Shown in pieces: positions 40,888 to 42,634 of a stretch of DNA of 64,000 bases (its first letter is position 1; each line of letters begins with the position of its first letter). The stretch spans positions 2,671,740 to 2,735,739 of the forward strand of contig NZ_KE356561.1 in the NCBI RefSeq assembly GCF_000415985.1, given 5' to 3'. Both the position numbers and the translations under genes were made by a program. This stretch comes from Haloquadratum walsbyi J07HQW2. GTDB taxonomy: Archaea; Halobacteriota; Halobacteria; Halobacteriales; Haloferacaceae. Under the pieces are notes generated by a model that saw nothing but the letters and a program-made list of their open reading frames with translations, made no database searches and was not told the origin of the DNA.

Positions 40888-41104
40888 ATCTATAATACTA
40901 TCTGAACATACTTGGTGGCACTGAATACGGTTGATACATACCAAATGAATTATTTCAGTATACTTACCAGTTTGAATTGACTCACGTAGGGCCTCACTGC
41001 TTTTGTGACTTTGATCGGTATTCGCTTGTTACTAAAGAGAAACTAATATATGATATATAATCCAGCGTTTTCAGTGCATTTGAGCGCACACAAGATATAT
41101 ATTT

Positions 41105-41198
41105 GTCATCATGCTTCCTTCTGACGGGCGGAATACGCCAGCTGAGCCCTGTCCGTCGCCATACCCCCGAGGACAGGGACCCGCCCAGCTCTTATCAG
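41105..41198 (-). ncRNA. Candidate GC-rich structured RNA
   Basis: On the reverse strand, 41190-41121 is clearly GC-rich inside AT-rich DNA. CCCTGTCC (41178-41171) pairs perfectly with GGACAGGG (41154-41147). Outside it AGCTGGG (41190-41184) can pair with CTCAGCT (41146-41140). GGGCGG (41186-41181) can also pair with CCGCCC (41131-41126), so two alternative folds exist. A TATA-like AATATATATGGG (41230-41219) lies about 25 bases before the expected first base. No reading frame fits. I cannot name the RNA class. It could be a stand-alone RNA or a far upstream leader of the DUF2071 gene. Confidence 0.5.
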
Positions 41199-41300
41199 TG
41201 AAATTGATATCAGTATGCCCATATATATTCATCAATAATATAGGATAATTTATTATTGTCTGACGAGAACTTATTAGGGCACGCATAGAATCGACCGTAT

Positions 41301-42382: not shown

Positions 42383-42634
42383 ATGCGCGTCCCAGGCGAC
42401 GCTCCGAGTCGATGCCCAATCTGTGATGACGCATATGATTCCGTCTCAGCACATGATGCCGGACTCATGGTGAATCTTATTGAAAACGATCGGTACCAAC
42501 GTGTCTGTTTTGATCCGGTACAGGCTGATACGGGAGATGCTCTCGTGTATTTTTATCATCACACCCATCATGAAACGAATACAATCGCTAAAACAAATAC
42601 CCATAGCGGCACGGCTGATGCGGAATGTGATTAG
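42383..42634 (+). CDS. Small haloarchaeal CPxC protein
   Basis: An 83-residue protein. Cys11 and Cys14 (RCPICDDAYDSVSAHDAGLM) form one zinc-knuckle half; NLIENDRYQRVCFDPV has a third Cys, and His-rich YFYHHTHHE could complete a metal site. The C-terminal 25 residues are Thr/Asn-rich. It resembles small haloarchaeal zinc proteins of unknown role. Single gene with an AT-rich upstream region. Confidence 0.65.
   Translation: MRVPGDAPSRCPICDDAYDSVSAHDAGLMVNLIENDRYQRVCFDPVQADTGDALVYFYHHTHHETNTIAKTNTHSGTADAECD

Follow-up and report, generated by a model that had tools for sequence, protein, structure and literature searches.

Genomic context and conservation of the element

The analysed window is a 64,000-nt stretch of the genome of Haloquadratum walsbyi J07HQW2. 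A GC-rich island described in a first-pass annotation of this DNA was readily recovered, with 59% GC at positions 41100–41199 versus 32–45% in the adjoining 100-nt windows. In this genome and two others the island lies between a DUF2071 gene and a gene for a coiled-coil protein. For the element within the island, conservation, strand preference, structure, copy number, change of neighbours and complementarity were computed; the features, all on the plus strand, are as follows.

41087–41104 (+): predicted promoter, kept in five genomes, ending 21–22 nt before the core
41087–41094 (+): BRE-like, A-rich part of the predicted promoter, CACACAAG
41095–41104 (+): TATA-like part of the predicted promoter, ATATATATTT
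41122–41195 (+): predicted small RNA of about 70–75 nt, placed by the core, the folding z-scores and the covariance match; both ends are predicted
41126–41131 (+): 5' strand of stem P1, GGGCGG, invariant in five genomes
41136–41146 (+): antisense segment 1, CGCCAGCUGAG, left single-stranded by the P1 fold and complementary to the bopI start
41147–41178 (+): P2/P3 hairpin with a short P3, which folds, pairing being maintained by register slips between species; the P2 strands are CCCUGUCC (41147–41154) and GGACAGGG (41171–41178)
within 41147–41178 (+): apical loop of this hairpin, CCAUACCC, invariant
41155–41166 (+): antisense segment 2, GUCGCCAUACCC, comprising the apical loop and the 5' side of P3 and complementary to the bopII start
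41181–41186 (+): 3' strand of P1, CCGCCC, invariant in five genomes

The core of the element (41126–41186) is kept in all five Haloquadratum genomes examined, with 84–90% nucleotide identity to the window. These genomes are J07HQW2 itself, C23 and J07HQW1, which make up the closer three, and the distant two, J07HQX50 and LUM.47, whose SRP19 proteins show 71–73% amino acid identity, lower than the nucleotide identity of the core. Among 60 related genomes searched, the window's own included, five contained the island. A pattern search of 17 genomes of the genus returned the same five and did not find the core in the 12 others, where the SRP19 neighbourhood is different, so that the orthologous site is unreadable.

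No Rfam family matches the island. A covariance model, which matches positions 41123–41192, was run against 170 genomes of the family and 392 genomes of the order; strong matches were confined to Haloquadratum, and neither search gave a convincing homologue outside this genus. The best three non-Haloquadratum matches in the order fall within protein-coding genes. Among the weak matches in the family, the best had an E value of 0.018 per genome, and 33 non-Haloquadratum genomes gave E values of 0.5 or lower; we regard these as chance matches on account of their number, which is within chance expectation for so many genomes, rather than of an inspection of each locus. The covariance-model and pattern searches both revealed a single copy of the element per genome, and searches of phages, plasmids and viral contigs gave no match to the island. 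On these two grounds the end of an insertion element, a concern raised earlier, or of a MITE is not supported.

The element is intergenic in all five genomes, and its neighbours vary. The order of DUF2071 gene, RNA and coiled-coil gene seen in three genomes is replaced in J07HQX50 and LUM.47 by dapA, RNA and a gene for a small CPxC protein, and in these two genomes the nearest homologue of the coiled-coil gene is located elsewhere. Since the flanking genes change while the RNA and its upstream region persist, the arrangement argues against a leader of either neighbour, and a riboswitch or other cis-regulatory leader was rejected on the basis of this variation and the lack of an Rfam match. In particular, the first-pass proposal of a leader of the DUF2071 gene fails because no DUF2071 gene follows the element in J07HQX50 and LUM.47. 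Its other suggestion, a stand-alone RNA, agrees well with a conserved, structured, single-copy core whose upstream region is kept while the neighbours change.

Strand and predicted promoter

The predicted transcript very probably lies on the plus strand, its earlier assignment to the minus strand being very probably wrong. Conservation of the flanks is one-sided: a 45-nt stretch preceding the plus-strand core is identical at 40–43 of its 45 positions among the closer three genomes and can be aligned with J07HQX50 and LUM.47 as well, while in the 45 nt downstream of the core conservation is lost even among the closer three. The minus-strand TATA-like box that had been proposed (41221–41229) falls within this unconserved flank. 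The plus-strand folds of the five genomes have z-scores of −2.3 to −4.1 relative to shuffled sequences, versus −0.8 to −1.7 for the minus strand; the minus-strand fold of 41105–41200 gave −0.82 with dinucleotide shuffles. The plus-strand fold suffers more when the observed changes are placed randomly than it has suffered in evolution (p = 0.01–0.15), and the same calculation for the minus strand gave p = 0.14–0.43. An antisense match to the starts of bop genes, described below, exists on the plus strand only. The G–U pairs at the ends of P1 show a slight preference for the minus strand. The plus strand is thus assigned from the one-sided conservation of the flanks, the folding z-scores and the antisense matches.

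In the conserved upstream flank, the TATA-like box reads ATATATATTT or ACATATATTT, and its spacing to the core is fixed at 21–22 nt. Judging by archaeal TATA spacing, the approximate start of transcription would be the first base of P1. The predicted promoter fits the haloarchaeal consensus (PMC4983044) only loosely, and a home-made promoter matrix yielded no usable motif.

Predicted structure and coding status

The stems named in the first-pass annotation (CCCTGTCC/GGACAGGG, GGGCGG/CCGCCC and AGCTGGG/CTCAGCT) are all present in the sequence. On the plus strand of the window's own genome, two folds lie 1 kcal/mol apart (−29.0 vs. −28.0), the slightly favoured one being the alternative, in which part of segment 1 is hidden. 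The P1 fold reaches a probability of 0.95–1.00 in the other four genomes, where its rival is about 3–7 kcal/mol worse. The two competing folds noted earlier are therefore real in J07HQW2, but a conserved switch is unsupported, since the alternative fold is competitive in this genome only.

The 3' strand of P2 has lost one base in J07HQX50 and LUM.47, the 5' strand reads AUCC instead of GCCC, and pairing is restored in a shifted register. Classical two-sided covariation in the stems is almost absent among the five genomes because the stems hardly vary; the covariance check suggested earlier thus gave strong matches within Haloquadratum but almost no classical compensatory changes.

The statement that the island holds no open frame is correct in the main. 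Short frames are present on its minus strand, one of which (MGMATxRAQLAxSA) is open in all five genomes, yet almost every change in it is non-synonymous, and a small protein was rejected. The 1-nt indels that shift the frame, together with the mostly non-synonymous changes, argue against coding. Guide RNAs were rejected as well: the C box (RUGAUGA) of a C/D box RNA occurs in none of the five genomes, although a CUGA, the D-box motif, is present, and the ANA motif of an H/ACA RNA directly follows P1 in none of them, a K-turn being absent as judged by inspection only. Complementarity of the predicted RNA to rRNA is at chance level, and no complementarity of at least 8 nt to 7S RNA was found. In the window's own genome the rRNA genes match as separate fragments (C1 990676–994818 and 2220122–2238956), which probably reflects an assembly problem or insertions.

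Complementarity to the start regions of two bacteriorhodopsin genes

When the five genomes were searched with the complement of the invariant loop (GGGTATGGCGACG, one mismatch allowed), each yielded several matches. One match recurs in every genome, where it marks the start of one particular gene; the remaining matches have no start site in common. This gene is bopII (middle rhodopsin), the C23 product of which is almost identical to the "Bacteriorhodopsin-II-like protein" of PDB entries 9jws and 8xhw; in the window's own genome its ATG lies at about 2171860 (−). The perfect complement is 12 nt long in the own genome, 13 nt in C23, 14 nt in J07HQW1 and 12 nt in J07HQX50; it spans the ATG and, after a small internal loop, resumes with CAGG and CTCAG. 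The extended pattern TATGGCGAN{2,6}AGGN{0,4}TCAG, which was composed after the match had been seen, the complementarity itself having been found by searching, occurs exactly twice in each of the five genomes, in the RNA gene and in bopII. It has no match in the 12 other genomes of the genus, and a backward control gave one match.

Leaderless mRNAs are common in haloarchaea. The TATA-like box located about 30 nt before GGGTATGG at bopII suggests that its message is leaderless or nearly so, in which case the duplex would begin at the very 5' end of the mRNA. Part of the conservation of the targets is explained by coding constraint, but within the first eight codons of bopII the two groups of genomes agree at 4 of 4 four-fold sites, compared with 24 of 63 in the remainder. 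For the local alignment with bopII, E values calculated over 3000 gene starts are 0.003–0.03 for the closer three; J07HQX50 gives about 1. For the whole genome, the bopII alignment alone is not significant (E of about 1–14 in the closer three).

When candidate starts around the bop genes were scored, bopI ranked second in both genomes examined, and its match runs through the other invariant unpaired segment of the RNA, CGCCAGCUGAG. This segment perfectly complements CTCAGCTGGCG, located just after the bopI ATG, in C23, in J07HQW1 (12 nt) and in the own genome, where the ATG lies at about 2169777 (−). The corresponding complement in J07HQX50 and LUM.47 is TCAGCTGGCGC (11 nt), despite an N-terminus that is longer by one codon, so that a perfect complement of 11–12 nt is present at bopI in all five genomes. 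In J07HQW1 the bopI start is intact, but the long frame that was detected does not begin until the middle of the gene, which could be interrupted, frameshifted or misassembled.

In a comparison of 210 ORF starts, complements of at least 11 nt were found at bopI and bopII only, all others being limited to 8 nt or less. In 127,598 background windows of 45 nt, from which the RNA locus was excluded, a complement of at least 11 nt to the RNA occurred in 35–70 windows (one or two sites) and one of at least 12 nt in none. GC-rich background windows can have hybrid energies that are similarly low, and energy alone is therefore indecisive. The identification of the bop genes as targets is drawn from a conjunction: two invariant unpaired segments correspond to the start regions of two paralogous rhodopsin genes in five genomes. 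No paired compensatory changes in the RNA and its targets were seen in these genomes. The RNA gene (C1:2712862–2712931, plus strand) is about 541 kb away from bopI and bopII, which is a trans arrangement; a cis-antisense RNA was rejected because the bop targets are encoded elsewhere in the genome.

Proposed function and alternative explanations

From these sequence comparisons, the element at 41122–41195 (+) is likely to be a trans-encoded antisense sRNA. It would mask the region around the start of each of the two bacteriorhodopsin mRNAs and probably controls the amount of these light-driven proteins; we infer its transcription, its ends and its binding to the targets. The long hairpin formed by P1, P2 and P3 would leave two invariant segments exposed, an 11-nt bulge on the 5' side, antisense to bopI, the gene of the main, proton-pumping bacteriorhodopsin I, and the apical loop, which together with its continuation into P3 is antisense to bopII. 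The apical loop would be the first to contact the 5' end of the predicted leaderless bopII mRNA, P3 would then open, and a duplex of 12–15 bp would cover the start codon. The bulge would pair with codons 2–5 of bopI. Both pairings could block the initiation of translation and thereby tune the amount or ratio of the rhodopsins post-transcriptionally. Masking of the start is proposed by analogy with archaeal sRNAs such as sRNA162 (PMC3510493), and the same analogy would make the effect repression rather than activation. To the more specific view that a Haloquadratum-specific RNA sets two paralogous rhodopsins by means of one exposed segment per leaderless mRNA start we give slightly better than even chances.

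It is unlikely that the plus-strand element is a structured stand-alone RNA with a function unrelated to bop, its complementarities having arisen by chance. The evidence for strand, structure and conservation is indeed independent of the targets, the bopII match taken alone is insignificant over all windows of a genome, and the conservation of the targets is partly explained by coding constraint; however, the matches involve both of the invariant unpaired segments, fall at the starts of two rhodopsin genes that are paralogous and occur in all five genomes. A DNA element without a functional RNA, representing either regulator sites common to the island and to the bopI and bopII starts or the relic of a duplication of bop starts, appears quite improbable. 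A common protein site could explain why the minus strand of the island looks like the sense strand at the two bop starts, but P1 and the hairpin are conserved though absent from the bop genes, the plus strand folds better than its shuffles, only one side has a conserved promoter-like flank, and two different sites in reverse orientation would be needed within a single 61-nt hairpin.

The location of the element, with the start of a gene on the same strand about 75–115 nt past it in both arrangements, would suit a 5' leader of the downstream plus-strand gene, which encodes the coiled-coil protein here and the small CPxC protein in J07HQX50 and LUM.47. Such a leader would, however, precede genes unrelated to each other, one of which, the coiled-coil gene, is preceded by a conserved TATA-like region of its own that lies past the element, and no Rfam leader or riboswitch matches; we hold this explanation to be very improbable. 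Practically nothing is left to recommend a minus-strand RNA or a switch-like DUF2071 leader with two competing folds. Both folds can be drawn in the window's own genome, and the G–U pairs at the ends of P1 favour the minus strand slightly, but its folding is not above that of shuffles, its upstream side and second fold are unconserved, and two genomes lack a DUF2071 gene downstream of the element.

The proposed antisense sRNA resembles sRNA162 of Methanosarcina mazei (PMC3510493), an archaeal intergenic RNA with two domains that pairs in trans near a translation start, with predicted masking. Its sequence, organism and targets differ from those of sRNA162, which covers a ribosome-binding site within a bicistronic mRNA and whose binding was shown experimentally, whereas here the pairing is computed and the messages are predicted to be leaderless. 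Two haloarchaeal intergenic sRNAs of Haloferax volcanii, s479 and sRNA132, likewise concern mRNAs of other loci (PMC8155600, PMC6560208). They differ in that the pairing of s479 is predicted inside the znuC1 coding region (PMC8155600) and sRNA132 concerns a phosphate transporter operon (PMC6560208), and the available parts of these papers report no action on rhodopsin genes. RNAs have also been proposed as regulators of rhodopsin genes in Halobacterium salinarum, namely cis-antisense RNAs on bop, brz/brb and halorhodopsin (PMC6523106); they lie on the opposite strand of their own targets, while the candidate sRNA is remote from both of its own.

The regulators of bacteriorhodopsin named in the literature consulted, Bat, Brz and Brb, are proteins acting on transcription (PMC5496347, PMC6523106), and no trans-acting RNA on bop was found in the open-access literature searched. 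In H. walsbyi, bopI ranks second among all genes in expression, in both light and dark, for a reason that is not established, while bopII, which has no settled function, is expressed slightly above average (PMC5496347). In the same transcriptome study, in which the word "antisense" is absent, most features shorter than 150 bp were lost and most small features were unmappable (PMC5496347). An sRNA addressing both genes could provide a handle on the high expression of bopI and on the function of bopII. If the proposal is correct, it would add a layer of post-transcriptional control to bacteriorhodopsin and represent trans-acting masking of the start codon in leaderless archaeal messages. It could then also serve as a clean test case for small-RNA control over leaderless mRNAs, a kind of translational regulation described in the s479 study as still to be unravelled (PMC8155600).

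Other features near the element

Upstream of the coiled-coil gene, a block at 41236–41290 (+) is strongly conserved in three Haloquadratum genomes. It contains an inverted repeat, CAATAATA...TATTATTG, as well as TTTATTATTG, and looks like the own promoter of the coiled-coil gene with a possible operator. A small protein gene at 42383–42634 (+), the product of which begins with MRVPxDAPxxCPxC..., has no Pfam match; the protein is probably zinc-binding, and its relatives are present in 117 of the 170 genomes of the family. In LUM.47, TnpB-like ORFs with the C-terminal CxxC motif RRCPECGHT (L005 1908–3016) directly follow the gene of the small CPxC protein and part it from SRP19.
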